Shown: one piece after another, positions 14,419-63,952 of the stretch
How the letters are laid out: every line of letters begins with the position of its first letter
Numbering within the stretch: position 1 is the first letter of the stretch
Origin: Sinomonas mesophila
GTDB lineage: Bacteria; Actinomycetota; Actinomycetes; Actinomycetales; Micrococcaceae
NCBI RefSeq assembly: GCF_001999765.1
Contig: NZ_KV908329.1
Location: forward strand, 34,763-98,762
Length of the DNA: 64,000 nucleotides
Direction of reading: 5' to 3'
Translations under genes and position numbers: made by a program
Notes under the pieces: model-generated
Database searches by the model: none
The model's input: the letters and a program-made list of their open reading frames with translations, nothing else
Told to the model about the DNA's origin: nothing

Positions 14419-14484
14419 GGGGTCACTTCCGTTGCGGGGTCACGTCCCTGCGTTGCGGGGTCACATCCCTGCGCTGCGGGGTCT
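14419..14484 (+). repeat. 21-bp repeat array A1 (end of lacI)
   Basis: GGGGTC cores begin at 14419, 14436, 14457 and 14478 (spacing 17, 21, 21), with units such as GGGGTCACATCC + CTGCGCTGC. The array overlaps the 3' end of the leftward lacI gene. The lacI TGA stop (14461-14463) is the TGA of a unit read on the minus strand as TGACCCC. Confidence 0.85.
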
Positions 14485-15492
14485 TGCGACCGACCCGCGC
14501 CGCACGAGCGGGCAGTCGAGGAGCTTCTGGCGGGGCTCGCCGTCGTCCGCCGTCCCCTCGATCTCGTCGAGGAGCCGGCTCACCGCCCAGCGGCCCATGT
14601 CGTAGTGCGGGAGCGCCACGGTCGTGAGCCCTGGCCACAAGCCGTCGGCCACAATCTCGAAGTTGTCGATGCCCACCACCGAGAGGTCCCCGGGGATGCC
14701 GAGGCCACGGCGGGCGGCGACCTCATAGACGCCGAAGGCCTGCTGGTCGTGGAAACAGAAGATCGCCGTCGGCGGATCGGGCAGGGCCAGGAGCTCCTCC
14801 GCCCCGGCCCGGCCCCCGCTGACGGCTGGCCGCTGCCTCGTGACCAGCGCGCCGTCGTACTCGATCCCCGCCTCGGCGAGGCTCGAGCGGTAGCCCTCGA
14901 GCCGGCCGAAGGCGGCGGGAATCTCGTCCCTGTTGTTGATGAAGCCGATGCGCCGGTGGCCGGCCTCGATGAGTTCCTTCATCGCCGTGCGGGCGGCAGC
15001 CGCCTCGTCCGGGACGACCGAGGGGAACGCCCCCTCAGCATCGAAGGCATCCAGCAGGACGACCGGGACGTTGATGCCAGCCGGGATCTCCGCACGCTGG
15101 TGGTACATGCGGGCGAGGACGAGGCCGTCCACCTGATGCTGCAGGAGGGTCCGCACCTGCTTCTCCTCGAGCGCCCAGTTCCGGCCGCTGTCCACGAGCA
15201 TGACGAGCCAGCCCCGCTCGTACGCCGCATCCTGCGCCCCGAGGATCATCTCGCCGGCGAAGGGGCTGCTGGCGATCTCGTCGCTGACGAGGCCGAGCAG
15301 GTAGGAGCGCTGGTTGCGCAGGCCGCTCGCGAGCCGGTTCGGCGAGTAGCCGAGGCTCGCGGCGACCTTCCGGACGTGCTCACGCGTCTCCGGGCTGACC
15401 CGGGCCTGGTGGGCTTCGCTCAGGGCGTGCGAGACGGTCGTGACAGACACCTCGGCGGCTTTCGCCACGTCGCGGATGCCGACCTTGCCCAT
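14461..15492 (-). CDS. LacI-family repressor of the fructan/sucrose operon
   Basis: A 343-aa LacI/GalR repressor. The N-terminal helix-turn-helix and hinge region is IRDVAKAAEVSVTTVSHAL to GYSPNRLASGLR (residues 6-60), followed by a periplasmic-binding-protein-like effector domain. The ATG at 15492 has GAGGGAG upstream. Two CAAAmCGTTTTG palindromes lie in its own promoter, so it is autoregulated and should control the downstream operon by read-through or through the same sites. Its last residues (about 334-343) and the stop codon are encoded by a 21-bp repeat unit of array A1, so the C-terminus has been altered or extended by the repeat. The effector is probably fructose, sucrose or a phosphate ester. 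Confidence 0.93.
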   Translation of the reverse strand: MGKVGIRDVAKAAEVSVTTVSHALSEAHQARVSPETREHVRKVAASLGYSPNRLASGLRNQRSYLLGLVSDEIASSPFAGEMILGAQDAAYERGWLVMLVDSGRNWALEEKQVRTLLQHQVDGLVLARMYHQRAEIPAGINVPVVLLDAFDAEGAFPSVVPDEAAAARTAMKELIEAGHRRIGFINNRDEIPAAFGRLEGYRSSLAEAGIEYDGALVTRQRPAVSGGRAGAEELLALPDPPTAIFCFHDQQAFGVYEVAARRGLGIPGDLSVVGIDNFEIVADGLWPGLTTVALPHYDMGRWAVSRLLDEIEGTADDGEPRQKLLDCPLVRRGSVARPRSAGM

Positions 15493-15508
15493 CCTGCACT
15501 CCCTCGTC

Positions 15509-15520
15509 CAAAACGTTTTG
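15509..15520. promoter_or_regulatory. LacI-type operator O1
   Basis: The perfect palindrome CAAAACGTTTTG with the central CG typical of LacI-family operators. It is 17 bases upstream of the lacI ATG. It is centred 36 bp from O2, a spacing that suits cooperative binding. Confidence 0.85.
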
Positions 15521-15544
15521 TATGCGTTGCATCACAGTCTGGGG

Positions 15545-15556
15545 CAAACCGTTTTG
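15545..15556. promoter_or_regulatory. LacI-type operator O2 and promoter
   Basis: CAAACCGTTTTG, one base off a perfect palindrome. It lies just downstream of a minus-strand -35 TTGACA (15560-15565) and before a weak -10 near 15536-15541. Bound repressor would therefore occlude the lacI/operon promoter. Confidence 0.8.
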
Positions 15557-15587
15557 CATTGTCAACCCACGCCTTTGCCCCCACCCT

Positions 15588-15650
15588 CAACGCCGCATCG
15601 CAACACGCCGTTATGGGCGGCGCATGACGGCGTGTTGCGATGCGGGGTTG
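15588..15650. repeat. Long palindrome RE4
   Basis: The 28-base arms begin CAACGCCGCATCGCAACACG and end GTTATG/CATGAC, around GGCGGCG. It is the closest relative of RE3. It sits between the lacI promoter and the stop codon of ligC, so RE3 and RE4 exactly bracket the sugar operon. Confidence 0.92.
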
Positions 15651-15668
15651 GGGGTGGGGTTGGGGTGG

Positions 15669-16751: not shown

Positions 16752-16796
16752 GGGGACATCTTCCACCGGAAGCTCACACCATGGGAGATTAGCCGC

Positions 16797-19529
16797 ATGG
16801 CTCCGCACCGCGAGACCGTCGAGATCGAAGGCCGCCGGATCAGCCTGTCCAATCTGGACAAGGTGCTGTACCCCGAGGCCGGCACCACGAAGGCCGACGT
16901 CATCGAGTACTACAAGTCCGTCGCCGACGTCATGATCCCCGTGGTGCGCGACCGTCCGGCCACGCGGAAGCGGTGGGTGAACGGCGTCGGCACGGCCGAG
17001 GAGCCGGGCGAGGTGTTCTTCCAGAAGAACCTGGACAAAAGGTCCACGCCGGACTGGGTCGAGCGCGTGACGCTCCACCATCGGAACTCCGTCAACTCGT
17101 ACCCGCTCGTCAACGACCTCCCGACCCTCATCTGGCTCGCCCAGATCGCCGCCCTCGAGATCCACGTCCCGCAGTGGCGCGCCGTCGAGGAAGACACGAT
17201 GCTCAACCCGGACCGGCTCGTGATCGACCTCGACCCCGGCCCCGGCGCGGGACTGCCCGAATGCGTCGAGGTGGCCAAGCTGGTCAAGTCGATCTTCGAC
17301 GACATGGGCCTGGCCTCGGTCCCGGTCACCAGCGGGTCCAAGGGCATCCACCTCTACGCCAAGCTCGACATGGGCCAGCGGTGGGAGGAGGTCTCCGCGG
17401 TGGCACGGGAGCTCGCGAAGTCCCTCGAGGCCGACCACCCCGACCTCATCGTCGCCGACCAGAAGAAGACCCTGCGCAAGGGCCGCGTCCTCGTGGACTG
17501 GAGCCAGAACAGCGGCCAGAAGACCACGATCGCCCCGTACTCCCTGCGGGGGCGCGTCCAGCCCATGGTCGCCGCGCCGCGGACGTGGAAGGAGATCGAC
17601 TCCCCCAAACTGGCACACGTGCGCTACGACGAGATGCCCGCCCGGCTCAAGAAGTTCGGCGATCTCTTCGAGCCCCTCCACGCCATCCCGCTCTCGGAGG
17701 CGCCCGACGCCGGCCGCCCCTCCAAGCCCGAGGCCCGGTCCCGCGCCTCGGCCGGCGCCCGCTCCGGCTCGAAGGGCGGCTCCCGCGGCTCGCGGTCGTC
17801 CGGCGAGGACGACGACGACGGCGGCCACGGGCCGTCGTCCTCCGGGGGTGCGGGCGCCCGCCCGGGCGAAGACCGCCTGACCCGCTACCGGGCAAAGCGC
17901 GACGCCGAGAAGACCCCCGAGCCGGTCCCGCTCGAGGCGCCGACGCCCGGGGCGGGCGACGCGTTCGTGATCCATGAGCACCACGCGCGGCGCCTGCACT
18001 GGGACCTGCGGCTCGAGCACGAGGGCGTGCTGGCCTCGTTCGCGATCCCCAAGGGCATCCCCACGGACACCGGCACGAACCACCTGGCCGTGCACACCGA
18101 GGACCACCCGATCGAGTACCTCACGTTCTCCGGCACCATCCCCCAGGGCGAGTACGGCGCGGGCGAGATGTTCGTGTGGGACACCGGGACGTACGAGGTG
18201 GAGAAGTGGATCGAGGGCAAGGAGATCATCGTCATCCTGCATGGCAGGGAGGGCGGCGGCCTCCAGGCCGTCGCCGAGGGGCTGGGCCGGGCCGGGGCCG
18301 GGGTGCGGCTCGCGCTCATCCATCCCGAGGGGGGCTACGGCGGGGGCGAGTCGGGGGGGAAGGAGAACTGGCTTGCGCACTTGATGAAGGACCAGGAGAA
18401 GGGCCATTGGCGCCGCGGCGCCAAGGGCGGCGGTGATGCCCCCGAGAAACCCGGGGTCACCTCCCAGGAATCCGGGGTCACCTCCCAAGAATCCGGGGTC
18501 ACCTCCCAAGAATCCGGGGTCACCTCCCAAGAATCCGGGGTCACCTCCAAGAAGGGCCGGGCAGCTCCCGCCCCCGCACCCATGCTCGCGCAGGCGGGCA
18601 CACCGGGACTCGTGCGCGGCGAGGGCTGGGCGCTCGAGATGAAGTGGGACGGCATCCGGGCGATCGTCGACGCGCGGGCCGAGCCGCTGCGCCTGTGGAG
18701 CCGGCGCGGGATCGACCAGGCCGGGACCTACCCCGAGCTCGCGGGGCTCGCGGACCTCGGTCCGGCAGTCCTCGACGGCGAGATCGTCGCCCAGGACGCG
18801 CGCGGGCGCCCCGACTTCGGGCTCCTGCAGCAGCGCATGAACCTCACCCGGCCCGCCGACGTCGAACGTGCGCGGCGCGACGTCCAGGTGAAGATCTTCC
18901 TGTTCGACATCCTGGAGTACGACGGCCAGGACCTCACGGGCCTGGCCTTCCGCGACCGCCGCGCTGCCCTCGAGCTCCTGGCCGCGGGCGGCCTGCCCCC
19001 GGCGACCGAGCTCTCGCCGCTCTTCGAAGGGGAGATCGAGCACATCCTCGAGGCCTCCGCGGAGCACGGGCTGGAGGGCGTCATGGCCAAGCGCCTCGAT
19101 TCCCGGTATGACGCCGGCCGCCGCTCTGGGGCCTGGCTGAAGATCAAGAACGCGCGCATTCAGGAGGTCGTGGTCGCCGGATGGCGCGAGGGCAAGGGCT
19201 CCCGCTCGGCGACGATCGGCTCGCTGATCCTCGGCATCCCGGACGACGCCGGCGTGCTGCGGTACGCGGGGCGGGTCGGCTCGGGCTTCGCCGAGGCGGA
19301 CCTGCGCAGGATCTCCTCAATGCTGGACGCCCTCGAGCGGAAGACGTCCCCACTGGAGGACGTCCCCGCCGAGGATCGACGGGACGCCCACTGGGTCACG
19401 CCCAAGCTCGTCGCCGAGGTGACCTACTCGGAAATGACCTCGGGCGGCAGGCTGCGCCACCCGGTGTGGCGCGGCTGGCGCCCGGACAAGGTGCCCGCAG
19501 ACGTGGTGCTCGAGCCGCCCGGCCGCTGA
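16797..19529 (+). CDS. ligD: NHEJ DNA ligase D (POL-PE-LIG) with repeat insertion
   Basis: A 910-aa multifunctional end-joining enzyme in mycobacterial domain order. The primase-polymerase domain (about 10-300) has the catalytic LVIDLDPG near residue 140. The 3'-phosphoesterase domain (about 385-530) has HEHHARRLHWDLRLE. The ATP-dependent ligase domain (about 590-905) has the nucleotidyl Lys616 in EMKWDGIR and EGVMAKR. Linker 1 (about 310-380) is charged and Ser/Gly-rich. Linker 2 (553-586) is built from five in-frame copies of a 21-bp repeat, giving ESGVTSQ units. The insertion keeps frame and lies between folded domains, so the enzyme should be functional. It works with Ku (7472-8467). Confidence 0.95.
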   Translation: MAPHRETVEIEGRRISLSNLDKVLYPEAGTTKADVIEYYKSVADVMIPVVRDRPATRKRWVNGVGTAEEPGEVFFQKNLDKRSTPDWVERVTLHHRNSVNSYPLVNDLPTLIWLAQIAALEIHVPQWRAVEEDTMLNPDRLVIDLDPGPGAGLPECVEVAKLVKSIFDDMGLASVPVTSGSKGIHLYAKLDMGQRWEEVSAVARELAKSLEADHPDLIVADQKKTLRKGRVLVDWSQNSGQKTTIAPYSLRGRVQPMVAAPRTWKEIDSPKLAHVRYDEMPARLKKFGDLFEPLHAIPLSEAPDAGRPSKPEARSRASAGARSGSKGGSRGSRSSGEDDDDGGHGPSSSGGAGARPGEDRLTRYRAKRDAEKTPEPVPLEAPTPGAGDAFVIHEHHARRLHWDLRLEHEGVLASFAIPKGIPTDTGTNHLAVHTEDHPIEYLTFSGTIPQGEYGAGEMFVWDTGTYEVEKWIEGKEIIVILHGREGGGLQAVAEGLGRAGAGVRLALIHPEGGYGGGESGGKENWLAHLMKDQEKGHWRRGAKGGGDAPEKPGVTSQESGVTSQESGVTSQESGVTSQESGVTSKKGRAAPAPAPMLAQAGTPGLVRGEGWALEMKWDGIRAIVDARAEPLRLWSRRGIDQAGTYPELAGLADLGPAVLDGEIVAQDARGRPDFGLLQQRMNLTRPADVERARRDVQVKIFLFDILEYDGQDLTGLAFRDRRAALELLAAGGLPPATELSPLFEGEIEHILEASAEHGLEGVMAKRLDSRYDAGRRSGAWLKIKNARIQEVVVAGWREGKGSRSATIGSLILGIPDDAGVLRYAGRVGSGFAEADLRRISSMLDALERKTSPLEDVPAEDRRDAHWVTPKLVAEVTYSEMTSGGRLRHPVWRGWRPDKVPADVVLEPPGR
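18453..18552 (+). repeat. 21-bp repeat array A2 inside ligD
   Basis: Five contiguous units start at 18453, 18474, 18495, 18516 and 18537, exactly 21 bases apart. The unit is GGGGTCACCTCC followed by CAAGAATCC. Units are nearly identical, which indicates recent tandem expansion. They encode repeated SGVTSQE in the PE-LIG linker. Confidence 0.95.
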
Positions 19530-19546
19530 GCGGAGGCGCGGCGGCA

Positions 19547-19582
19547 GAGCGGAGGCGGGGCCAGGCCGGCCCGCCCCCGCTC
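19547..19582. terminator. Hairpin between ligD and ggt
   Basis: Arms GAGCGGAGGCGGGGCC and GGCCCGCCCCCGCTC pair with one bulge across a short loop. The genes converge here (stops at 19529 and 19595), so it may serve both directions. Confidence 0.5.
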
Positions 19583-19594
19583 AGCCTCCCGAGC

Positions 19595-21451: not shown

Positions 21452-21557
21452 GGGGGCCTCCAGAGCTGAGGGTGAGTCGAGCTGTCGGGTCTGACCAACC
21501 TATGCACCGCGCCGCAGGGGCGGTAGGCCTCACGCTGAGGACTTCAGGCACGAAAGG

Positions 21558-23012: not shown

Positions 23013-23025
23013 GCGAACGGTCCAA

Positions 23026-24140: not shown

Positions 24141-24265
24141 AACCACCTCCCCAACGATGCGGGGTCACCTCCCAGCGATGCGGGGTCACCTCCCAACGAT
24201 GCGGGGTCACCTCCCTAGAATGCGGGGTCACCCCGCATCCTAGGGACGTGACCCCTCATCCTAGA
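24141..24265. repeat. 21-bp repeat array A3 with inverted tail
   Basis: Direct cores begin at 24161, 24182, 24203 and 24224 (21-base steps), after a degenerate unit at 24141. Two inverted units follow. The junction forms a hairpin, CTAGAATGCGGGG / CCCCGCATCCTAG (24215-24243). The array fills the gap between the quinone reductase start and the MurA-fusion stop. Confidence 0.92.
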
Positions 24266-26412: not shown

Positions 26413-27210
26413 CTACTGCATCCAGACCACGTTCCACGTCCCCGCCGCGACGGCAGCGCCCACCGATGCGGCGGCGAGCAGGACGCCGCCGGCAAGCACC
26501 CCGGCGTCGAGCGCGGAGAACCGCGACGGCCGCGCCCACGTGCGCTCGGCGCCGCCGAACCCGCGTGCCTCCATCGTCACGGCGAGCCGCGACGCGAGCC
26601 GGATCGACTGGACGAGCAGCCCGAAGCTCTGCCCGAGCAGCGCCCGGAGCCGATGGAGCGGCCCGCCTTGGGCGCCCACTCCGCGGGCCCGGCGCGCGAG
26701 CCCGAGGATCTGCCACTGCTCCACCATGAGGCCGACGAGCCGCAGCGCCGCGAGCGTGCCGAGGACGAACCGGTGCGGGAGGCGGGCGCGCTGGGCGAGG
26801 GCGTCGGCGAGGTCGGTCGGGTCTGTGCAGCTCATCATGAGCAGCGCCGGCAGCGCGATCGCGAGGCCGCGCAGCGCCATCGCGGCGCCGACCCCGAGCG
26901 AGCCCTCGGTCACGTCCCACAGAGGGGTCGCGAGCAGCACGGCTCCCGAGTCCTGCCCGACGGCGGCGGTGCTGAGCCCGCCGACGGCGGCCGCGAGGAT
27001 GAGCGGCCAGCCCCGCTGCCACAGGAGCCGGAACGTCATTCCGGCCAGCGGGAACACGGCGAGGCACAGCGCAAGCGCGACGCCCGCCGAGACCCAGTCG
27101 ATGCTCAGCGCGAGCGCGAACGTCGGAAGGACGACGGCGGCGAGCTTGCTCAGCGGGTTGGCCCGGGCGAGCAGCGAGTCGTTGTCTCGGATCGCGAGAA
27201 GGTCCCTCAC
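26413..27210 (-). CDS. ykoC: ECF transporter transmembrane component (YkoC/EcfT)
   Basis: A 265-aa EcfT subunit with about five or six membrane helices. The two Ala-Arg-Gly coupling motifs expected in EcfT are seen (LARRARG and TMEARGFGG). Its start overlaps the stop of the fused ATPase by four bases. With YkoE and YkoD it forms an ATP-driven importer for the thiamine precursor hydroxymethylpyrimidine. A TPP riboswitch upstream of the operon supports the substrate. Confidence 0.88.
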   Translation of the reverse strand: MRDLLAIRDNDSLLARANPLSKLAAVVLPTFALALSIDWVSAGVALALCLAVFPLAGMTFRLLWQRGWPLILAAAVGGLSTAAVGQDSGAVLLATPLWDVTEGSLGVGAAMALRGLAIALPALLMMSCTDPTDLADALAQRARLPHRFVLGTLAALRLVGLMVEQWQILGLARRARGVGAQGGPLHRLRALLGQSFGLLVQSIRLASRLAVTMEARGFGGAERTWARPSRFSALDAGVLAGGVLLAAASVGAAVAAGTWNVVWMQ

Positions 27211-28976
27211 GTCGCCTCCCCTCGCGGAATTGTCGGCTGGGGGTCGGTGCTAGTGCTGCGCACCGGCCCCACGTCGACAATTGCGGGTGCCGCCGGCGAG
27301 CCGAGCGCAAGGCGGCGGCCCCCGAGCGCACGGGTGAACTCGACGTCGTGCGTCACGGACACCACGGCCGTCCCCTCGTCGAGGAGCTCGGTGAGGAACG
27401 AGGCGAGCTCGGCCCACGTGGTCGCGTCCTGGCCGAACGTCGGCTCGTCGAGGATCAGCACGCGCGGGCTCGCCGCGAGGACCGTCGCGACCGAGAGCCG
27501 CCGCTTCTCCCCGCCCGAGAGCGTGTACGGGTTCGCGTCCATGAGGTGCACGAGGCGGAGCCGCTCGGCGAGCTCGTCGACCCGCCCGAGCCCCCGGCCG
27601 AGCTGGCGAGGAGCGAAGCGCAGCTCGTCGCGGACGGTGGAGGTGACGAACTGGTGCTCGGGCTCCTGGAACACGGTCCCGATGCGCGGCACGAGGTCCT
27701 CGGCGCGCCACGCGTGCGGGACGGGCCCGACGGCGCGCAGCCCGGCGGAGGGGTCGGCGCCCGCGAGCGCCGCGGCGGCCTCGACGCGCCCCTCGACCGG
27801 GGCGAGGAGGCCCGCGAGAGTGAGCGCGAACGTGGACTTCCCGGCGCCGTTGGGGCCCGTGACGGCGAGCGCCTCGCCCGCGCGGACCTCGGCGTCGACA
27901 CCGGTGAGGACGGGGACAGGCGCACGACGGCGGGTGGCCCGCTCGCGCGAGACGCCCACCCTGTGCGCGGAGAGCAGGAGATGACCGGCGGGAGGTGAGC
28001 CCGCATCGTAGGGACGTGACCCCGCATCGTTGAGAGGTGACCCCGCATCGTTGAGAGGTGACCCCGCAAGGTTGGGGGCGTTGCGGCGGGGGCGGACCGC
28101 CGGCACGACGCCGGGGACCCAGACGCCGGCGCGGGCGAGCAGCTCTCGGGCGCCGGCGAGGACGTCGTCGGGCGCGCCGTCGAGCAGTACCCCGCCCGCG
28201 TGGCCCGCCGAGCCGGGGGCCAGGACCACGATCCGGTCCACGCAGTCCCTCCACACGGCCACGCGGTGCTCGACGACGACCAGCGTCGCCCCGCTCGCCG
28301 CGGCCGTGCGCACGACGGCGTCGCGCACCTCGAGCACGCCGGCCGGGTCGAGGTTCGCGGTCGGCTCGTCGAGGAGGATGAGCCCCGGGCGCATGGCCAG
28401 GATGCCCGCGAGCGCGAGGCGCTGCTTCTGCCCGCCCGAGAGACTGGCCGTGGGGTGGTCGAGCGGGAGGTGGCCGAGGCCGACGTCGTCCAGCGCGGCG
28501 CGGACGCGCTCCCAGATCTCCTCGCGGGGGACGGCGAGGTTCTCGGCGCCGAACGCGACGTCGTCGCCGAGCCGGCCGAGGATCACCTGCGTCTCCGGGT
28601 CCTGCTGCATGAGCCCCACGCGCCCGCGGCGCTCGCGCGGCTGGCCGCCGTCGACGGCGAGCCGGCCGCCCTCGTGGGCCTCGTCGTCGTCCCCGAGGAC
28701 GCCCGCGAGGGCGTGCAGGAACGTGGACTTGCCCGCGCCCGAGGGCCCGAGGACGAGGACGCGCTCCCCCGGCTCGATGCGCAGGGTCAGGTCCCCGACG
28801 GCCGGGGCGTCCCGGCCCGCGTGCTGCCAGGTCCAGCCCTCGGCCACGACCTCAGCGGGGCGTACGCGGCTGGCGCTCACGCGGCCGGCGCGCACCTGAC
28901 CGGCCGCACCCCCGGGGGCCGCACCCCCGGGGGCCGCACCCCCGCGGGCTGCCCCGCGGGGGCCCGCCGTCGCCAT
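27207..28976 (-). CDS. ykoD: Fused two-domain ECF ATPase (YkoD type) with repeat linker
   Basis: A 589-aa duplicated ABC ATPase. Domain 1 has Walker A GPSGAGKST (77-84), signature SLSGGQKQR and Walker B LILLDEPTANLD. Domain 2 has Walker A GPNGAGKST (about 374), signature TLSGGEKRR and LILDEPTFGQD. The first 30 residues are a Gly-Ala-Pro repeat coded by three GC-rich 15-base units. The inter-domain linker (about 301-329) consists of four in-frame 21-bp family-A units read as NDAGSPL. It energises the YkoE/YkoC importer. Its start overlaps the YkoE stop (TGATG). Confidence 0.9.
   Translation of the reverse strand: MATAGPRGAARGGAAPGGAAPGGAAGQVRAGRVSASRVRPAEVVAEGWTWQHAGRDAPAVGDLTLRIEPGERVLVLGPSGAGKSTFLHALAGVLGDDDEAHEGGRLAVDGGQPRERRGRVGLMQQDPETQVILGRLGDDVAFGAENLAVPREEIWERVRAALDDVGLGHLPLDHPTASLSGGQKQRLALAGILAMRPGLILLDEPTANLDPAGVLEVRDAVVRTAAASGATLVVVEHRVAVWRDCVDRIVVLAPGSAGHAGGVLLDGAPDDVLAGARELLARAGVWVPGVVPAVRPRRNAPNLAGSPLNDAGSPLNDAGSRPYDAGSPPAGHLLLSAHRVGVSRERATRRRAPVPVLTGVDAEVRAGEALAVTGPNGAGKSTFALTLAGLLAPVEGRVEAAAALAGADPSAGLRAVGPVPHAWRAEDLVPRIGTVFQEPEHQFVTSTVRDELRFAPRQLGRGLGRVDELAERLRLVHLMDANPYTLSGGEKRRLSVATVLAASPRVLILDEPTFGQDATTWAELASFLTELLDEGTAVVSVTHDVEFTRALGGRRLALGSPAAPAIVDVGPVRSTSTDPQPTIPRGEAT
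27991..28075 (-). repeat. 21-bp repeat array A4 inside ykoD
   Basis: Four units in reverse orientation begin with TGASCCC at 27996, 28017, 28038 and 28059, exactly 21 apart. On the coding strand each reads as GGGGTCACC-type sequence translated in a different frame from ligD, giving A-G-S-P blocks. Confidence 0.92.
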
Positions 28977-29602: not shown

Positions 29603-29660
29603 GGTGGTTTCCTCCTGGGTGCAGGAGGGGAAGGCGGTCCCCGCCGCCCTGAGATTCTCG

Positions 29661-29775
29661 ACTCCCTTCGCCGGTACTAGCCGGAGCAGGTTCGAGGGTC
29701 TGCGGTAGCCCGCACTCTCAGCGTCCCGTCCTCGCCCCGGCCGGCGGCCGGATGGAGGACGACGCTCCCCTGTCG
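29661..29775 (-). ncRNA. TPP (THI-element) riboswitch
   Basis: The minus strand shows the conserved elements in order: GGGGAGCG, GACGCTGAGAGTGCGGGC, then GAACCTGCTCCGGCTAGTAC and CGGCGAAGGGAG. These match the pyrophosphate- and pyrimidine-sensing helices of thiamine pyrophosphate riboswitches. It lies in the leader of ykoE and should shut off the transporter when TPP is plentiful. A short GAGAATCTC palindrome (29651-29659) follows and may be part of the expression platform. Confidence 0.93.
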
Positions 29776-29845
29776 TTGTGCAGACGATTCTACCGCTGCG
29801 TGTGACGGGACGCCGCGGGCGGAGCCCCACGCTAGGCTGGCGGGC

Positions 29846-38288: not shown

Positions 38289-38347
38289 CGCCGAGATGGG
38301 GGCCTGTAACCGCGAGATGGGGTCCCGTGACCCCGAGATGGGGGCAC
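38286..38347 (+). repeat. 21-bp repeat array B1
   Basis: Three family-B units with GAGATGGGG cores at 38293, 38314 and 38335 (21-base steps), unit TGACGCCGAGATG + GGGGCCTG. The first unit begins with the TGA stop codon of the MFS gene. Confidence 0.88.
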
Positions 38348-38461
38348 CGGTCGCACGACGACGACCCTCACCCGCCGCTCGGCTCGCGCGGCCCGCCTGG
38401 TGGGGCGTCAGCGTGGGGAGGCACCGCCGTCGTCCGCGCGCCGCAGTACCGGGAACTCCAC

Positions 38462-38524
38462 CACCCCACCTCGCCGTCCCACCACCCCACCTCGGCGGCA
38501 CAGGACCCCACCTCGGCGAGGCAC
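38462..38524 (-). repeat. 21-bp repeat array B2 (inverted)
   Basis: Three reverse-orientation family-B units with CCCCACCTCG at 38464, 38485 and 38506. Array B1 faces it across about 115 bases, so the 256-base gap before khtT could fold as a large hairpin. Otherwise the gap holds a CCGCCGTCGTCC motif (38424-38435) and nothing else recognised. Confidence 0.85.
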
Positions 38525-38544
38525 GCCGGGACTAGAGTTGTGCC

Positions 38545-41293: not shown

Positions 41294-41983
41294 CTAACGC
41301 GCGATGATCACGTCCAGCATCCGCGGCCCGTGGACGCCCTCGACCCGCTCGAGCTCGATGTCGCTCGTCGCCGACGGCCCGGAGATGAGCGTGAGCGGCC
41401 GCGTGATGTCGAGCCGCGCGAAGCCCTCCGGCACGGTCCCCACGATCGTTGAGACCGGGACGACGCACACGTGGTGGTCCGGGACGAGCGAGGTCGCGCG
41501 CCGCCCCTGGTCCGGGGACCCGTCGAGGACGATCGTCCCCGTCTCGGCGACGCTCACGGCGGAACCGGTCACGACGGCGTCGGCCGCGTCGAGGTGTGCG
41601 ACGGCGAGCGGCGCCTCGCGCGAGTCCGTCGCCGCGCGCTCCGCGACGGCGGGGTGCAGCCACTCGGCCGGGAGGCCCTCGGGCACGACGACGTCCTTGC
41701 CCTCGAGCCGGGCCCTGATGGCCTCCGCGACCTCGGCGGCGGGGACCACCTCGACGCGAGCCTTGTAGTCCTCGAGCCGGTCGACGAGCATCGCGACGAG
41801 CGCGTCCTCATCGAGGCCGGATGTCGTGCGGTAGGCGGGAGTGACCCCGGATCGTAGGGAGGTGACCCCGGATCGTAGGGAGGTGACCCCGGATCCTTGG
41901 GAGGTGACCCCGGATTGGGTGGGGGCGGGGTCGGTGCCGAGGGCCTCGTGGATGCGGGCCAGGATCTCGTCGCGCGCGCTCAT
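41294..41983 (-). CDS. lutC: L-lactate dehydrogenase complex protein LutC with repeat insertion
   Basis: A 229-aa LUD-domain protein of the LutABC lactate oxidation complex. The LUD core includes AVVTGSAVSVAETGTIVLDG, DHHVCVVPVSTIVGTVPEG and SGPSATSDIE. Residues about 20-48 are unusual: four in-frame 21-bp repeat units give SGVTSQG, SGVTSLR, SGVTSLR and SGVTP. This segment lies between the short N-terminal helix and the LUD domain. The ATG at 41983 overlaps the lutB stop. Confidence 0.92.
   Translation of the reverse strand: MSARDEILARIHEALGTDPAPTQSGVTSQGSGVTSLRSGVTSLRSGVTPAYRTTSGLDEDALVAMLVDRLEDYKARVEVVPAAEVAEAIRARLEGKDVVVPEGLPAEWLHPAVAERAATDSREAPLAVAHLDAADAVVTGSAVSVAETGTIVLDGSPDQGRRATSLVPDHHVCVVPVSTIVGTVPEGFARLDITRPLTLISGPSATSDIELERVEGVHGPRMLDVIIAR
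41841..41925 (-). repeat. 21-bp repeat array A5 inside lutC
   Basis: Reverse-orientation units begin TGACCCC at 41842, 41863, 41884 and 41905. On the coding strand they are GGGGTCACCTCC + CTACGATCC, the same orientation and frame as in ligD, giving S-G-V-T-S blocks. Confidence 0.93.
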
Positions 41984-48989: not shown

Positions 48990-49095
48990 CCCCCCTCGGC
49001 GGACCCACCACCCCATCTCGGCGTCACAGGCCCCCATCTCGGCGGACCAACCCCCCATCTCGGCGTCACAGGCCCCCACCTCGGCGTCTCAGCCG
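48990..49095 (-). repeat. 21-bp repeat array B3
   Basis: Reverse-orientation family-B units begin CCCCAYCTCGG at 49011, 49032, 49053 and 49074, after a degenerate unit near 48991. The last one runs into the TGA stop of the SRPBCC gene. Upstream, at 48933-48966, an inverted pair of CGACGGCGGG/CCCGCCGTCG motifs forms another hairpin. Confidence 0.88.
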
Positions 49096-57015: not shown

Positions 57016-57021
57016 TACGCT
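57016..57021 (+). promoter_or_regulatory. -10 box of the AEC transcript
   Basis: TACGCT ends 6 bases before the GTG at 57028, the spacing of a leaderless start. The AEC start codon itself lies 53 bases further on, so the transcript would begin with a short upstream reading frame. Confidence 0.45.
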
Positions 57022-57027
57022 GGTGCC

Positions 57028-57081
57028 GTGACCCCCGGAAAGCGATTCCTCACCCGTGCCCGCGGAGCCTGCGCATGCTAG
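57028..57081 (+). CDS. Possible cysteine leader peptide of the AEC transporter
   Basis: A 17-residue frame, MTPGKRFLTRARGACAC, starts with a leaderless GTG and ends with Cys-Ala-Cys just before TAG. Its last codons overlap the AEC start (ATG at 57075), so translation is coupled. Actinobacteria are known to place short leaderless frames with C-terminal Cys codons before sulfur genes, where ribosome stalling at low cysteine changes downstream expression. The following genes look sulfur-related. Too short to be certain. Confidence 0.4.
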   Translation: MTPGKRFLTRARGACAC

Positions 57082-58010
57082 GGGTGCTCGCCGGCTTCTC
57101 GGTGGTCTGGGCGATCATCGGCGTCGGCTGGTTCTGCGCACGCCGGGACGTCCTCGGCGAGGGCGCGCAGCGCGTGCTGAGCCGGCTCGCGTTCTTCGTC
57201 GCGAGCCCGGCGCTCCTGCTCGAGACGCTCTCCCGCGCGGACCTGAGCACGATCTTCTCGACCCACCTGCTCGTCATCGCCGTGAGCGCCACGGCCGTCG
57301 CCCTCATCGCGCTGGTCGTGTTCCGCTGGTGGCGGCGGCGCCGGACGCCCGAGGCGCTCATCGCCTCGATGGGCGCCTCCGTCGCCAACTCGGCCAACCT
57401 CGGCATCCCGATCTCGGTCTTCGTCCTCGGCGACGCGAGCTACGTCGCGCCCCTGCTGATCTTCCAGCTCGCGCTGTTCACGCCGTCGTTCCTCCTCGTG
57501 CTCGACGGCACGACGACGACGGCGAAGCCCGGGTGGGCGCGCGTGCTTCAGTTCGTGCTCCCCATCGTGACGAACCCGACGATCATCGGGTCGATGATCG
57601 GGCTCCTGCTGGCCGCGACCGGCTGGCAGCTGCCCGAGCTCGTGATGCAGCCGATCCACCTCATCGGCGGCGCCGCGATCCCCGCGATGCTCATGGCCTT
57701 CGGCATCTCGCTGCACGGCTCGCGTCCGTTCCAGGCCTCGGACGGCCGCCGCCTCGACACGGTCCTCGCGACGGCGCTCAAGCTCGTCGTCCACCCGCTC
57801 ATCGCGTTCGTCTTCGCGCGCTTCGCGCTCGGGATCGACGGGCACGCGCTCTTCGCCGCCGTCGTCACCGCGGCCCTGCCCACCGCGCAGAACATCTACA
57901 TCGCCGCGCAGCGGTACCAGGAGGGCCTCGTCGTCGCGAAGGACACCGTGCTCATCACGACCGTCGTGGCCGTCCCCGCCATGGCCGTCATGGCGGCGCT
58001 GCTCGCCTGA
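57075..58010 (+). CDS. AEC-family transporter
   Basis: A 311-aa auxin efflux carrier-family membrane protein with about ten helices. Seen: the split-helix motif MGASVANSANLGIPISVFVLG with the central Asn-Ser-Ala-Asn, LPIVTNPTIIGSMIGLL, and LPTAQNIYIAAQRY near the end. Members export or import organic anions or amino-acid derivatives. CGGAG lies 8 bases before the ATG. The stop is followed directly by repeat array A6. A possible leader peptide precedes it. Confidence 0.88.
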   Translation: MLGVLAGFSVVWAIIGVGWFCARRDVLGEGAQRVLSRLAFFVASPALLLETLSRADLSTIFSTHLLVIAVSATAVALIALVVFRWWRRRRTPEALIASMGASVANSANLGIPISVFVLGDASYVAPLLIFQLALFTPSFLLVLDGTTTTAKPGWARVLQFVLPIVTNPTIIGSMIGLLLAATGWQLPELVMQPIHLIGGAAIPAMLMAFGISLHGSRPFQASDGRRLDTVLATALKLVVHPLIAFVFARFALGIDGHALFAAVVTAALPTAQNIYIAAQRYQEGLVVAKDTVLITTVVAVPAMAVMAALLA

Positions 58011-58061
58011 CCCGGGGTCACCTCCCAACGATGCGGGGTCACCTCCCAACGATGCGGGGTC
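58008..58061 (+). repeat. 21-bp repeat array A6
   Basis: GGGGTC cores begin at 58014, 58035 and 58056 with units GGGGTCACCTCC + CAACGATGC. The AEC stop codon (58008-58010) forms TGACCC, an inverted half-unit fused to the first core. Confidence 0.92.
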
Positions 58062-58254
58062 GCTCGCTCCAGTGGTGCACTCGCTCCCGCACCCTGACTC
58101 CGCGAGACGCCGCATGACTCCCTGTTTCCCCGGATTTCCGCCGGTTTCGTCGAGTGTCCCTCAGCGTCCCGGCGCTTTGGAGCCGTGCCGCGCTGCCGTG
58201 TTCAGTGGTGCCAATCGCGGTCCGATCGGCCGCACGAGCACCCGGAGGAACACC

Positions 58255-59244
58255 ATGGCACGCCCCCGCATCCATCCCCTCGCCGCGCCCGCGGCGACCC
58301 TCTCCGCGACGGCGCTGCTCGCCGTCGTCGGCCTCAGCGCCTGCGCCGACCCGGGCGCGCAGGCGAGCCAAGCTTCCGCCACGGCGAGCGTCGCGGGGAA
58401 GACGTTCAACCTCACCGCAGACCAGCAGCGCATCACGGTGGAGAAGGACGGCGCCGCGGCGGCCCTCGTGCCCGATGCCGTGAAGGCGGACGGGACGCTG
58501 ACCGTCGCGACGACCGGCGGCACGGCGCCGCTCTCGTTCCGCGCGACAGACAACACGACGCTCATCGGCAACGAGGTGGACATCGCGTACGCCGTCGCGG
58601 AGACGCTGGGCCTCACGGTCGAGGTCGTGCCGGTCGCGTGGGCGGACTGGCCGCTCGGCGTCGAATCGGGCAAGTACGAGGCAGTCCTCTCCAACGTGAC
58701 GGTCACCGAGGCGCGCAAGGAGAAGTTCGACTTCGCGAGCTACCGCAACGACCTCCTCGGCTTCTACGCGAAGAGCGACTCGGCCATCACCGAGGTCACC
58801 GAGCCCAAGGACGTCGCGGGGAAGCGCATCATCGTCGGCTCGGGGACCAATCAGGAGGCGATCCTGGTCCGCTGGGACGAGCAGAACAGGGCGGCCGGCC
58901 TGGCCCCGGTCGAGTTCCAGTACTACGACGACGACTCCGCGTCCTCGCTCGCGATCCAGTCCGGGCGCGCGGACCTCACGTTCGGCCCGAACGCCGGCGC
59001 CGCGTACAAGGCGGCGCTGGACGGGAAGACCAAGGTGGTCGGGACGCTCGACGGCGGGTGGCCGCTCAAGGCGGAGATCGCCTTCACGACGAAGAAGGGC
59101 AACGGGCTCGCCGCCGCGGCCCAGGCTGCCCTCAACCGGCTCATCGACGACGGCGCGTACGCCCGAATCCTCGACCGCTGGGGCCTGACCTCCGAGGCCA
59201 TCCCCCGCTCGGAGCTCAACCCGCCGGGCCTGCCCAAGAAGTGA
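58255..59244 (+). CDS. Amino-acid-type ABC binding lipoprotein
   Basis: A 329-aa family 3 solute-binding protein. The signal peptide ends in the lipobox LSAC (Cys at about residue 26). The mature domain has GTLTVATTGGTAPLSFRATD, LIGNEVDIAYAVAETLGL and ESGKYEAVLSNVTVTEAR. GGAGG lies 6-7 bases before the ATG. It resembles the binding protein at 62887-63888 along its whole length. No permease or ATPase is next to it, so it may share the importer of its paralogue. Its TGA stop is the first triplet of a repeat unit in array A7. Confidence 0.92.
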   Translation: MARPRIHPLAAPAATLSATALLAVVGLSACADPGAQASQASATASVAGKTFNLTADQQRITVEKDGAAAALVPDAVKADGTLTVATTGGTAPLSFRATDNTTLIGNEVDIAYAVAETLGLTVEVVPVAWADWPLGVESGKYEAVLSNVTVTEARKEKFDFASYRNDLLGFYAKSDSAITEVTEPKDVAGKRIIVGSGTNQEAILVRWDEQNRAAGLAPVEFQYYDDDSASSLAIQSGRADLTFGPNAGAAYKAALDGKTKVVGTLDGGWPLKAEIAFTTKKGNGLAAAAQAALNRLIDDGAYARILDRWGLTSEAIPRSELNPPGLPKK

Positions 59245-59378
59245 CCCCGGAACGTAGGGACGTGACCCCGGAACGTTGAGAGGTGACTCCGCAACCTTGA
59301 GAGGTGACCCCGCAACGAGCATCCTTTGCGGGGTCACCTTCCTGTGTTGCGGGGTCACCTTCCTGTGTTGCGGGGTCA
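59242..59378. repeat. 21-bp repeat array A7 (two opposed blocks)
   Basis: Four reverse units (TGACCCC-type at 59242, 59263, 59284, 59305) are followed by three direct units (GGGGTC at 59330, 59351, 59372), all in 21-base steps. The opposed blocks can form a long hairpin with TGACCCCGCAA / TTGCGGGGTCA at its tip. It fills the whole gap between two convergent genes and supplies the first gene's stop codon. Confidence 0.95.
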
Positions 59379-59379
59379 G

Positions 59380-60699
59380 TCAGACTCTGCTGCGCTCCGG
59401 GGCTGGGAGGCCGAGGTGCTCTCGGAGGGTCGTGCCCGCGTACTCCGTCGGGTAGACGCCCCGCTCCTGGAGCTCGGGGACGAGCCGGTCGACGATCTCG
59501 TCGAGACCGCTCGGGATGAGCCACGGGGAGATGTTGAACCCGTCCACGGCGCCCACGCGCGCGTACTCCGCGAGGAGGTCCGCGACCTCGGTGTACGAAC
59601 CGACGATGCTCCGCGCCCCGCGGGCGTTGCGCTGCCGCACGAACTCGAGGATCGTCAGCCCCTGGTCGGTGGCCTCGGCCCGCCACGCGGCGGCAAGCTC
59701 GAGCGCCTTCGCGCCGTGGAACGCGCTCCCCCGCGTCTCGGAGGTCGTCTCGACGACGGGGTCGACGTCGGGCAGCGGCCCGTCCGGGTCGTACTCGGCG
59801 AGGGAGCGGCCCCAGAACTGCTCCAGGTACGCGAGGGCCTGCTGCGGGCCGATCTGGAGCTCGCGCAGCCACACGAGCTTCTCCCGCGCCTCGGCCGAGG
59901 TGGGCGCGAGGACGAACTCGCTCGCCGGCATGATCTGGAGCTCCTCGGGACTGCGCCCGGCCGCGAGCGTCCGCTCGACGAGGTCGCGGCGGAACGCGAC
60001 GGCGTCGTCGAACCCGGGGTGCGCGGAGAAGATGACGTCGGCCTGGCGGGCCGCGAAGTCGCGGCCCTCGGGCGAGTCCCCGGCCTGGAACAGCACGGGC
60101 CGTCCCTGGGGGCTCCGGGGCAGGCGAGCGGTCGTGTCGATGCTGTAGTGCTGGCCCGAGTGCAGGACGCGCCGGCCCGGCTCGGTGGCCCAGAACTCCT
60201 TCGCGAACCGCACGAACGCCTCGGCGTGCCGGTACCGGTCGGCGTGGTCGAGGTACCCGCCGCGGCGGAAGTTCTCCCCGGTCCACGCATTGTCCGTCGT
60301 GACCACGTTCCACGCCGCGCGCCCGCCCGAGAGCGCATCGAGCGAGGCGAGCCGCCCGGCGAGGTCGGCCGGGTCGTTGTACGTCGTGTTCTGCGTCGCG
60401 ACGAGCCCGATCCTGCTCGTGACGCCCGCGAGCGCGGCGAGCATGGTCTGCGCGTCGGGCCGCCCCGCGACGTCGAGCTCGTGCACGCGGCCGAGGTGCT
60501 CGCGCAGCCGCAGGCCTTCGCCGAGGAAGAACGCGGCGAAGAGCCCTCGCTCGGCGGTCTGGGCGACCCGGCGGAAGGACTGGAAGTCCGTCTGGGACCC
60601 GGACTGCGGCAGCTTCCAGACGGTCCCGGAGTTGACGCCCTGGAAGAACACGCCGAACTGCAGGCTGCCGCTCGGGGTGAAGTCGGGATGGATGCTCAT
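59380..60699 (-). CDS. NtaA/SnaA/DszA-type flavin-dependent monooxygenase
   Basis: A 439-aa group C flavin monooxygenase of the NtaA/SnaA/DszA branch. Seen: LGRVHELDVAGRPDAQTML, ATQNTTYNDPADLAGRLASL, SGGRAAWNVVTTDNAWTGEN and the later GRPVLFQAGDSPEGRDFAA. It needs reduced FMN from a partner reductase, which is not in the window. AGGAGG lies before the ATG at 60699, which overlaps the stop of the next LLM gene. Related YtnJ proteins act on sulfur or N-acylated amino-acid compounds. Confidence 0.9.
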   Translation of the reverse strand: MSIHPDFTPSGSLQFGVFFQGVNSGTVWKLPQSGSQTDFQSFRRVAQTAERGLFAAFFLGEGLRLREHLGRVHELDVAGRPDAQTMLAALAGVTSRIGLVATQNTTYNDPADLAGRLASLDALSGGRAAWNVVTTDNAWTGENFRRGGYLDHADRYRHAEAFVRFAKEFWATEPGRRVLHSGQHYSIDTTARLPRSPQGRPVLFQAGDSPEGRDFAARQADVIFSAHPGFDDAVAFRRDLVERTLAAGRSPEELQIMPASEFVLAPTSAEAREKLVWLRELQIGPQQALAYLEQFWGRSLAEYDPDGPLPDVDPVVETTSETRGSAFHGAKALELAAAWRAEATDQGLTILEFVRQRNARGARSIVGSYTEVADLLAEYARVGAVDGFNISPWLIPSGLDEIVDRLVPELQERGVYPTEYAGTTLREHLGLPAPERSRV

Positions 60700-61772: not shown

Positions 61773-62887
61773 GCTGCACTCCCTCTCTCGTCTGTCTCGG
61801 GGTCTGCTGTCTGCCCTGTCCTGGAAGCGGAGGGGTCCTCGGGACCCCAGAGGGTCGTGGGTGCGGCGGCGCGCACGGCGGGGATGACCTCGGCGGCGAA
61901 CCGCTCGAGCACCTCGAGCTGCTCCTCGAAGGGGAGCACTGTCGGCAGCGAGATGGACTGGAGGTCATGCCTATACAGCGCGTGATACTCAAGGATCTTC
62001 TCGATGACGCGTTCGGGGCTGCCCACGAGGGACGGCCCGTGGGCGACGGCGTGCTCGATGTCCCGGAATGGCGTGTTGTTGCCGGGCACGTCCCGGGCTG
62101 CCGTGAGCGCCTCGTACACGGGACCGAAGCGGAGCGTCGCCTCGCGAGTCGTGTCTGCCAGGAACACGCCACCGGCACCGCTGCCCGAGCCGAGGTATGC
62201 GTGCCGATCGTCGTGCCCGTGCGCGGCGTACTGCTCGCGCCAGTGGTCGATGAGGACCTTGTAGTTCTCCCGCGGCTGGATCGCATTGGCGGTGAAGAGG
62301 GGCTCGCCCCAGCGGCCCGCGAGCGCGGCCGAAGCGAGGGTCGTCGCGCTGCCATGCCAGATGCGCGGGGCGCCGCCGAAGGGGCGCGGAAGGGTCCTCG
62401 TCGGCCGCGTGAGGGGTGCGCGGAAGCGCCCCGACCACGTCACGCCCTCCTCGCGCCAGAGCCTGCGCAGGAGCGCATGCTTCTCCTCGAGGAGGGCCCA
62501 CTGTTCAGCGACGTCGAGGCCGAAGAGCGGGTACTGGAGCACCTCGTTGCCCTTGCCGATGGTGATCTCGAGCCGCCCGCGCGAGAGCTGATCCACGGTC
62601 GCGTAGTCCTCCGCCGCCCGGACTGGATCGGCCAAGGACAGGACGGTGACGCCAGTGTGCAGGCGGATGGTGCGCGTCGCCGTCGCGACAGCCGCGAGGA
62701 TCACCGCGGGCGACGATGACAGGAATGCTCCGGCATGCCGCTCCCCCACCGCGAAGGAGTCGAAGCCGAGCTCCTCGGCCCGCCGCGCCGTCTCGATGAC
62801 TTGGGCGAGCCGTTCCGCGGCCGAGACCTGCTCGCCTGTGATCGGGTGCGGTCCATACGGGACGATGTCGAGGACCTGGAAGCGCAT
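61769..62887 (-). CDS. LLM-class flavin-dependent monooxygenase
   Basis: A 372-aa luciferase-like monooxygenase. Seen: ARRAEELGFDSFAVGERHAG, RTIRLHTGVTVLSLADPVRAAEDYATVDQ (split across residues about 72-100), LSRGRLEITIGKGNE, and APRIWHGSATTLASAAL. It resembles the FMN-dependent branch that includes YtmO-like proteins. The ATG at 62887 overlaps the stop of the binding-protein gene (TGATG). Transcribed with the ABC importer. Confidence 0.9.
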   Translation of the reverse strand: MRFQVLDIVPYGPHPITGEQVSAAERLAQVIETARRAEELGFDSFAVGERHAGAFLSSSPAVILAAVATATRTIRLHTGVTVLSLADPVRAAEDYATVDQLSRGRLEITIGKGNEVLQYPLFGLDVAEQWALLEEKHALLRRLWREEGVTWSGRFRAPLTRPTRTLPRPFGGAPRIWHGSATTLASAALAGRWGEPLFTANAIQPRENYKVLIDHWREQYAAHGHDDRHAYLGSGSGAGGVFLADTTREATLRFGPVYEALTAARDVPGNNTPFRDIEHAVAHGPSLVGSPERVIEKILEYHALYRHDLQSISLPTVLPFEEQLEVLERFAAEVIPAVRAAAPTTLWGPEDPSASRTGQTADPETDERGSAA

Positions 62888-63888
62888 CAGGAGCCCGCCT
62901 GCACGAGCGTCTCGGCCGTCACCGTCGTCGACTCGGGCAGCGCCTCGTCGCCGAGGCCCCAGCGGTCGAGGACCTCCCGGTACATGCCGTCCGCGATCGC
63001 GGCGTTGAGCGCATCCGTGATCGGCGCGGCGAGCCCGTTGCCGCGCAGCGTCGTCGCGGCGACGAGGGTCTCCTTGGGCCAGCCTGCGTTGACCTTGCCC
63101 ACGACCTTGAGGTCGTCGCGCGTGTTCTCCCGGTACACGACCGTGGGGTACGGGCCGAGGTTGAGGTCCGTCCGGCCCGAGGCGAGGGCCAGGATCGTGT
63201 CCGCGTCCGTGGAGTAGTAGTGCAGCTCGGCGGGGGCCTTGCCGCGGGCCTCGAGGTCCTTGTTCCACGCAAGCAGGATCTTCTCCTGGTTCGTGCCCGA
63301 CCCGACCGAGACCTTCTTGCCCGAGATGTCGTCCGCGCCGCTGACCGTCAGGCCGGAGCCCTTCTTCGCCTCGAAGCCCATGTAGGCGGCGCGGTACGTC
63401 GCGAAGTCGAACAGCTGCGCCCGAGCAGCGTTGATGCCCACGTTCGAGAACACGGCCTCGAAGTCGCCAGACTGGGTCTTGAGCGGCCAGTTCTCCCACG
63501 AGGTCTGCTGCAGGTCCAGCTCGAGGCCCAGCCTGTCCGCGACGAGCTGCGCGAGGTCCACCTCGACGCCGATGAGCGTCCTGTTGTCCGTGGCCTGGAA
63601 GGTCAGGGGCAGGGCGCCGCCCGTCGTGGCGACGGTGAGCTTCCCATCAGCGGCGATCTTGGCCGGGACCTCGGCGGCGAGCGCCGGGTCCTTGTCGGCG
63701 CGGATGCGCTTCTGGTCCGGGGAGAGGTTGTAGACGACGCCGTTCTTCGCCACCGTGCTCGGCGCGGACGCCTGCGCATCTGGGTCCGCGCAGGAGCTGA
63801 GGGCGGCGGCTGCCGCAAGGCCAGTGGCAAGGACGACGGCGGGGCGCGCCGTCCGCGTCCGGCGCGTCTGGGCGCTGGGGTTCTTCAT
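62887..63888 (-). CDS. Amino-acid-type ABC binding lipoprotein
   Basis: A 333-aa family 3 solute-binding protein. The Arg-rich start and hydrophobic segment VVLATGLAAAAALSSC end in a lipobox (Cys at about residue 33). The mature part has GKLTVATTGGALPLTFQATD and LIGVEVDLAQLVADRLGLEL. The start may instead be the GTG at 63921, which follows a good GGGAGGTGA supplied by a repeat unit; this would add 11 residues. It lies downstream of an ABC ATPase and upstream of three monooxygenases in one operon. Paralogue of 58255-59244. Confidence 0.9.
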   Translation of the reverse strand: MKNPSAQTRRTRTARPAVVLATGLAAAAALSSCADPDAQASAPSTVAKNGVVYNLSPDQKRIRADKDPALAAEVPAKIAADGKLTVATTGGALPLTFQATDNRTLIGVEVDLAQLVADRLGLELDLQQTSWENWPLKTQSGDFEAVFSNVGINAARAQLFDFATYRAAYMGFEAKKGSGLTVSGADDISGKKVSVGSGTNQEKILLAWNKDLEARGKAPAELHYYSTDADTILALASGRTDLNLGPYPTVVYRENTRDDLKVVGKVNAGWPKETLVAATTLRGNGLAAPITDALNAAIADGMYREVLDRWGLGDEALPESTTVTAETLVQAGS

Positions 63889-63924
63889 AGTGCGGGCAAG
63901 CCTTTCTCGATGGGGAGACACGTG

Positions 63925-63952
63925 AAGGTCACCTCCCTGCGATGCGGGGTCA
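63925..63952 (+). repeat. 21-bp repeat A8
   Basis: One full and one partial family-A unit (cores at about 63925 and 63946). The partial unit's TCA (63950-63952) is the TGA stop of the leftward ATPase gene. On the mRNA strand the full unit offers GGGAGGTGA upstream of the binding-protein gene. Confidence 0.85.

Follow-up and report, generated by a model that had tools for sequence, protein, structure and literature searches.

A genus-specific 21-bp tandem repeat of Sinomonas and its inverted two-arm arrays between convergent genes

Introduction

In a stretch of 64,000 nucleotides from Sinomonas mesophila, a member of a genus of soil bacteria, a unit of 21 bases recurs in tandem at eight places, at gene ends, between genes and inside genes. 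The stretch, hereafter the window, corresponds to C12:34763-98762 of a source genome of 4.0 Mb in 47 contigs. The locus raises the question of what kind of element this repeat, here termed family A, represents and why its copies lie where they do. The initial annotation had described tandem arrays in both orientations and had missed their two-arm design, the hairpins, the bias towards convergent genes and the presence of other unit families. Family A is an interspersed repeat confined to the genus and largely outside coding sequence, in which some loci consist of two arms facing each other in inverted order. On the grounds of position and predicted folding, it may be a gene-end repeat whose two-arm copies would act as long two-way stops between convergent genes and whose one-arm copies would be tolerated, a reading to which we assign a probability of about 0.42.

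The Repeat Unit

The unit GGGGTCACCTCCCAACGATGC is present at all eight places with a step of 21 bases (most were also detected by Tandem Repeats Finder), and an exact two-unit pattern with this step matches the window 17 times as opposed to 0 times in 100 dinucleotide shuffles. It combines a conserved part, GGGGTCACCTCCC, with a variable remainder. A profile from the window and 27 further stretches, which were picked by the first 100 of the 207 genome hits and thus form a sample chosen for arrays, shows a conserved GGGGTCAC-TCCC and a variable other part; at a score of 9 it yields 287 hits as opposed to 19 in the reversed sequence (421,926 bases). The step is 21 bases in 145 of 149 cases among the sampled loci, and two of the four exceptions stem from hits that were later excluded. 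Across the whole genome the two-unit pattern has 207 matches (105 plus, 102 minus) and the reversed pattern has none. The description of a dispersed family in both orientations, with copies at gene ends and inside genes, is supported.

One-Arm and Two-Arm Arrays

Loci of the window and the 27 stretches were included if at least one arm held two good units, others being left out, and were classed as two-arm if facing arms lie less than 400 bases apart; genes were called by a custom codon-usage script rather than by a standard gene finder. Removal of an A+T-rich false hit (L092:3297) from 47 loci left a set of 46, in which L084:375 was re-classed as its minus hits overlapped plus hits. Nineteen of these loci are two-arm, or inverted, and 27 are one-arm; the plus arm comes first in 15 of the 19 and the minus arm in 4. 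According to our gene calls, 41 of the 46 loci are intergenic. Here the two classes differ in position, with 13 of 17 intergenic two-arm loci located in convergent gaps as opposed to 8 of 24 intergenic one-arm loci (Fisher 0.011). Among array-free gaps with a length of 100 bases or more, 17 of 145 are convergent, a share that the two-arm loci far exceed (p 1e-9). As this share falls with lengthening gaps (33/232 at a minimum gap of 30 bases, 7/90 at 150), the bias is not accounted for by gap size. A lone opposite unit lies close to four of the one-arm loci; when these are re-counted as two-arm, the convergent loci number 15 of 21 as opposed to 6 of 20 (Fisher 0.013).

For arrays meeting in inverted order, folding predicts a long hairpin on both strands. 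For 18 of the 19 two-arm loci (the remaining one exceeds 330 bases), the mean z of the RNA fold is -10.9 and -9.9 on the two strands, with no value above -4.2, as opposed to -0.9 and -0.7 for the 27 one-arm loci; the shuffles behind the values for sampled loci and gaps permute non-overlapping two-letter words and are thus an approximation. By eye, the centre between a plus and a following minus arm is in many cases a near-palindrome of 26 bases that resembles GGTCAATGTC-N4-CAATGACC, and that between a minus and a following plus arm is a near-palindrome of 17-18 bases. One-arm loci in codirectional gaps follow the gene strand in 6 of 12 cases and hence show no preference relative to the upstream gene.

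Changes in arm length involve whole units and take place independently in each arm. At the variable columns, agreement is 0.72 within an arm, 0.51 between facing arms and 0.57 between arms of different loci. Since facing arms are no closer than arms of different loci, pairing rests on the conserved part of the unit. The agreement within arms supports the proposal of the initial annotation that the units underwent local tandem change after dispersal.

Distribution and Evolution in the Genus

A first search pattern was positive in 8 of 15 Sinomonas genomes, with 207 steps in the source genome and 44 and 40 in the next two. A second pattern was positive in 9 of the 15 as opposed to 0 of 230 other genomes of the family, and a third, related pattern hit 2 of the 396 genomes searched in the order, each a Sinomonas. 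In named genomes, the two-unit pattern has at least 70 loci, and all listed ones belong to Sinomonas, some being identical to loci in G006, G009 and G010. Among the matches listed, the units of G002-G006 and G009 mostly end in TGA and often start with GGGGTCAT, and those of G010 and G011 are nearer to the units of the source genome. A plasmid search with the array at 24141 returned two weak Rhizobium matches (E 0.4), which were taken as chance. The unit is thus not confined to the window, and an assembly artefact is unlikely because the single-contig genomes G005, G011 and also G006 carry arrays.

Eleven orthologous locus pairs from two S. atrocyanea genomes, at 89-93% identity, were compared by alignment. 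In several of them the array lies at the same site and differs in unit number, for example by 42 bases in L120/L166, by 21 in L128/L168 and as three versus five units in L118/L158, which again agrees with local tandem change. The comparison of orthologous loci envisaged by the initial annotation thus revealed length differences of whole units, but it gave no insertion dates since no clean empty site was found. In the pair L123/L171, the gene preceding the array is shortened and runs directly into it in one genome, whereas the longer version in the other genome stops short of the array.

At the gene end at window position 58010, family A-like units occur in G005, G006 and G009, an inverted pair of another unit in G010 and G011, a 31-bp repeat in G013, and no repeat in G002, G003, G004 and G012; for four of the 14 relatives (G001, G007, G008 and G014) the comparison covers only 30 bases of flank.

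Other Unit Families With the Same Design

Family A is not alone. Family B, whose 21-bp unit consists of CCCCAYCTCGGCG and a variable remainder, accounts for 50 tandem steps in the source genome. Within the window it forms a left arm at 38291..38345 on the minus strand, a right arm at 38459..38526 on the plus strand, and a further array at 48990..49092 on the plus strand. Its subtypes CCCCATCTCGGC and CCCCACCTCGGC make up arrays that are mostly uniform inside, and some minus-then-plus pairs lie a few hundred bases apart, as at C5:140123/140359.

Gaps were surveyed irrespective of family in 20-kb stretches of four Sinomonas genomes (the source genome and three others). Tandem arrays are present in 33 of the 116 convergent gaps, in 44 of the 415 codirectional ones and in 8 of the 179 divergent ones (p 6e-8); the stretches of the source genome contain no exact family A step, so that their share says nothing on family A. 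A tandem array together with a hairpin (z below -4) was recorded for 16 of these convergent gaps, for 6 of the codirectional ones and for none of the divergent ones; one of the 16 as well as one of the 6 come from gene end 58010, which is included in three stretches of the relatives (L196, placed on purpose, L231 and L326). In two outgroup genomes of the family, tandem arrays occupy 2 of 34 convergent gaps (p 0.005 versus Sinomonas).

Inspection by eye revealed two-arm arrays of unrelated units, namely a 31-32-bp CTCGGGTAC unit in G013, G014 and the source genome, a 22-bp CTGGCCACTCGTCG unit in G014, GGGGTGACTTCGGCGCCACAC and GCCAGAGACCCCGCAACGG units in G011 and a GTTCCCCAGCTTCTGCTCCCA unit in G013. 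Some other surveyed gaps have the look of ordinary terminators with a short repeat and lack the two-arm form. A convergent gap of 307 bases on contig C2 of the source genome (L292:17483-17811) has a fold z of -20, and its CTCGGGTAC-type arms enclose GACGACGGC-type hairpins; in G014, the 22-bp CTGGCCACTCGTCG two-arm array at L205:4084-4603 lies in a convergent gap with extra hairpins alongside. Steps in the other Sinomonas arrays include 14, 15, 17, 18, 19, 22, 31 and 32, of which those of 15 and 18, being short, may reflect noise in G+C-rich DNA.

One could propose from these arrays that Sinomonas builds its gene ends sequence-blind, with unrelated units of, among others, 21, 22 and 31-32 bp made into inverted arrays in convergent gaps, different units in different species, the architecture being selected or produced and the sequence turning over. 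We consider this unlikely; if true, a novel machinery, encoded by the host or by an element, would have to generate inverted tandem arrays and disperse them.

Copies Inside Genes

In-gene copies are present at five loci; each is in an open frame and falls between Pfam domain matches of the protein. They are found in LigD (aa 553-587), in PutA between proline and aldehyde dehydrogenase, in TilS, in the two-domain ABC protein of the window (27207-28847) and in the HrpB helicase, where the match-free stretch spans nearly 300 residues and the linker position is consequently less certain. Orthologues from 14 other Sinomonas genomes were aligned for LigD and PutA. None of the 14 LigD orthologues has family A units in the form of the source genome, and several carry other seven-residue repeats in the same stretch. 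In G003-G005, the seven-residue repeats of the LigD linker differ in sequence, and some resemble family B in coding form (GCCGAGATCGG).

The PutA array of the source genome comprises five plus and four minus units. At this site, G006 has a short inverted pair of the GGGGTCACC/GGTGACC type, of which G003, G004 and G005 have degenerate forms and G002 a weaker one still, and no array is visible in nine other relatives or in the second PutA copy of the source genome. The comparison suggests that a small old insertion either grew in the source genome or was replaced there. Copies kept in frame in LigD, PutA, HrpB, TilS and the ABC protein amount to a natural record of tolerated insertions in steps of seven residues.

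Arrays of the Window

Unit counts in the window refer to 12-base cores, in which two mismatches at most were allowed. By this count each arm holds one to five units, and the range of two to seven given by the initial annotation is reached at its upper end only with partial units. A two-arm array lies at 59242..59378, between the convergent genes 58255-59244 (plus) and 59380-60699 (minus). It comprises a minus arm to 59311, an 18-base centre and a plus arm from 59330, with six units in total over both arms, and folds with z -7.9 and -7.1. In the array at 24141..24260, a single inverted unit at 24235-24255 comes after the plus units (24161-24223 by profile); the plus strand of the array folds with z -6.6, and the array was classed as one-arm in the 46-locus set despite the single inverted unit. 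Having opposite-strand units, at 24235-24255 and at 59330-59378, both arrays are inverted structures.

The remaining arrays have one arm. On the plus strand, 14419..14483 has three cores with steps of 17 and 21, the 17-base step at 14419/14436 being the one exception to the regular step that had been noted in the window. The array at 18453..18557 (plus) has five units in frame within LigD (16797-19529) and separates the phosphoesterase and ligase domains. The minus-strand array at 27992..28068 (three units by profile, four cores) is in frame between the two ABC matches of the minus-strand gene 27207-28847, and that at 41837..41915 (minus, again three units by profile and four cores) lies between two minus-strand genes. 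Two plus-strand units at 58014..58061 stand immediately 3' of gene 57084-58010. Fold z values of three one-arm arrays are 1.55, 0.20 (58014..58061) and -0.96 (41837..41915). The eighth place, 63925..63952 on the plus strand, consists of one degenerate unit and one partial unit, where the initial annotation had listed an array.

The repeat also touches coding ends. The stop codon of the LacI-type gene 14461-15492 (minus) falls within a family A unit, and TGACCCC of the repeat provides the stop codon of the adjoining gene both at 14461 and at 59244. The window further contains a thiamine pyrophosphate (TPP) riboswitch at 29646-29781 on the minus strand (Rfam RF00059).

Discussion

If family A is a repeat of gene ends, the hairpin of a two-arm copy would provide a two-way transcription stop, or might shield both 3' ends from antisense reading. 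With either role, two-arm copies would be kept in the gaps between convergent genes and lost elsewhere. One-arm copies may be relics or seeds. They would be tolerated at the ends of genes and also, given that a length of 21 is divisible by three, between protein domains. The first dispersal could have followed a non-autonomous route, with a putative enzyme, like that of repetitive extragenic palindromes (REPs) and bacterial interspersed mosaic elements (BIMEs). Should two-arm arrays indeed stop transcription, repeated DNA would be a source of signals for gene ends that turns over from one species to the next and retains its shape.

Several results weigh against this reading. The majority of the loci, 27 of 46, have a single arm without a hairpin. 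One-arm loci are themselves enriched in convergent gaps relative to array-free gaps of at least 100 bases (8/24, p 0.005), so that part of the bias needs no hairpin, and some copies sit in codirectional and divergent gaps. Facing arms are no more alike than random arms (0.51 versus 0.57, p 0.96), and the lack of covariation speaks against selection for a perfect hairpin. The Fisher value for the difference in position rose from 0.0044 with 47 loci to 0.011 after L092:3297 was excluded and L084:375 re-classed. In the gap survey, a tandem array with a hairpin occurs in 1 of 34 outgroup convergent gaps versus 16 of 116 in Sinomonas (p 0.12), and hairpins alone are equally common in the convergent gaps of outgroups (12/34) and Sinomonas (39/116), as expected from ordinary terminators. 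As to mobility, the longest words shared by the outer flanks of 16 plus-minus loci measure 4.4 versus 4.1 after re-pairing of the flanks (p 0.23), giving no sign of a target-site duplication, although one of the 16 was later re-classed and old copies may have lost the duplication. The 11 S. atrocyanea pairs contain no clean empty site, which is to be read with the fact that these loci were selected by pattern and absent sites are under-sampled.

The main rival, which appears somewhat doubtful to us, is that family A is functionless satellite DNA: slippage would multiply the units, recombination would copy them between loci, and copies would be kept where they do least harm, with the hairpins as a by-product. 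The independence of the arms without covariation, the whole-unit length changes between close species and the restriction of in-gene copies to stretches between domain matches are all in line with this view, as is the convergent enrichment of the unstructured one-arm majority. Tolerance alone, however, would not explain why two-arm and one-arm loci differ in position (p 0.011) or why the plus-then-minus order exceeds the minus-then-plus order (15 versus 4).

The strict step could also reflect phased binding sites of a host DNA-binding protein, for example one that orders the nucleoid, given that 21 bp corresponds to two helical turns and that the step is kept in 145 of 149 cases along with a conserved part of the unit. 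A protein polymerising on DNA has been proposed by Subirana and Messeguer for repeats of this length (PMC8161180). However, the steps of 14-19, 22 and 31-32 in other Sinomonas arrays are not all whole turns and their sequences are unrelated, and binding sites would leave the position of two-arm loci unexplained. We therefore regard this explanation as quite improbable, and helical phasing as a general rule was rejected given the range of steps (14 to 32).

Less probable still is that the arms are the ends of a gene-less transposon of the IS21 type (or a Tn7-like one), in which phased, inverted direct repeats would be transposase sites. By eye, some IS21 elements of the same bacterial family have end repeats phased at about 22 bp with the same inward polarity, a 22-bp lag ranks among the top three in 8 of 30 IS21 loci, and the plus-then-minus order of 15 of the 19 two-arm loci would fit; direct repeats 23 bp apart are reported for a studied member (PMC10122671). 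Yet only 5 of the 8 loci with a 22-bp lag exceed the maximum of 20 shuffles. Tandem family A units were absent from all 30 IS21 loci, which include one Sinomonas element in full, and from four more Sinomonas stretches with IS21 matches, and IS21 ends were rejected as the source of family A, the similar architecture being all that keeps them among the rivals. Few IstB/rve matches exist in the genome, and none of the inspected loci, which cover part of the arrays of the genome, combines such a match with an array. The arms, less than 400 bases apart by definition, are too close for a transposase gene. Neither a target duplication (p 0.23) nor a sharply defined outer end was seen. Where more distant arms were inspected, the genes between them look host-like: a Nudix-like and a TetR-like gene, or a 320-aa protein of no known kind and a TetR-like gene, between arms about 0.6-1.1 kb apart (by eye), and an MFS transporter with a MarR protein (Pfam) between another pair about 1.8 kb apart. 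Composite transposons carrying cargo between facing arms were rejected on this account.

Two further candidates were dismissed: mobility by REP-associated tyrosine transposases (RAYTs), since the Y1 transposase PF01797 has 0 matches in the source genome, and Shine-Dalgarno mimicry by GGGGTCACCTCC, which resembles the 3' end of 16S rRNA, since other Sinomonas often have GGGGTCATGTCCC among the matches listed and the other families lack GGGGTCACCTCC.

Comparison With Known Systems

Clustered regularly interspaced short palindromic repeats (CRISPR) share with family A a regular step and differ in having spacers; in family A, unit and step are both 21 bases, which confirms the earlier exclusion of CRISPR. 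IS21 elements carry phased direct repeats of similar length, inverted at their two ends (PMC10122671, PMC11208146). This arrangement recurs at 19 of the 46 family A loci, which lack, in contrast, istA/istB between the arms (at the inspected loci), a target duplication and a defined tip, and whose arm length varies by whole units.

REPs, together with BIMEs and REP doublets forming hairpins (REPINs), come closer in position. REPs are described as numerous short copies at gene ends that are frequently oppositely oriented and can fold with one another; they lie predominantly between genes in unidirectional or convergent arrangement and in some cases inside genes, and CGTC REPs seem to have no dedicated transposase (PMC3733652). 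Family A resembles them in its gene-end position, its opposite pairs (19/46 two-arm; 13/17 intergenic ones convergent) and its in-gene copies. It differs in that the unit is not a palindromic hairpin, as one-arm arrays fold about as shuffles do; in that the arms are same-direction tandems of 2-6 units and do not alternate regularly; and in that the Y1/RAYT transposase expected for GTAG REPs is absent from the genome.

No element with the unit of family A was found in the literature on Sinomonas intergenic repeats and on 21-bp intergenic tandem repeats, judged by titles, and none matching the two-arm design in that on inverted repeats as bidirectional terminators between convergent actinobacterial genes. 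The statement that no described element has this unit thus stands as far as the sequence is concerned, but the kind of repeat has been published. Subirana and Messeguer describe tandem repeats of constant size (20-21 nt) that are species-specific, form several families per genome, are of unknown function and occur also in Actinobacteria (PMC8161180). The portions examined hold no inverted two-arm design, convergent-gap bias or between-domain insertions, and the word convergent is absent from the main text, with the 2020 paper (JB.00229-20) and the supplements outside this comparison. The two-arm design, the convergent bias and the change of unit under a constant design would accordingly be new relative to the published class, as judged from the literature examined, and the other unit lengths of further Sinomonas families are a difference as well. 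Family A is otherwise much like these repeats (PMC8161180), having a 21-nt unit in tandem (145/149 steps of 21), a second family of equal length and different sequence (50 steps in family B as opposed to 207 in family A), a short conserved stretch in its units, a range limited to close relatives (9/15 Sinomonas, 0/230 others) and a mostly non-coding location (41/46 intergenic). Bacterial tandem repeats of constant size have so far been described without a function, and the split into one-arm and two-arm arrays suggests a role for them that can be tested.

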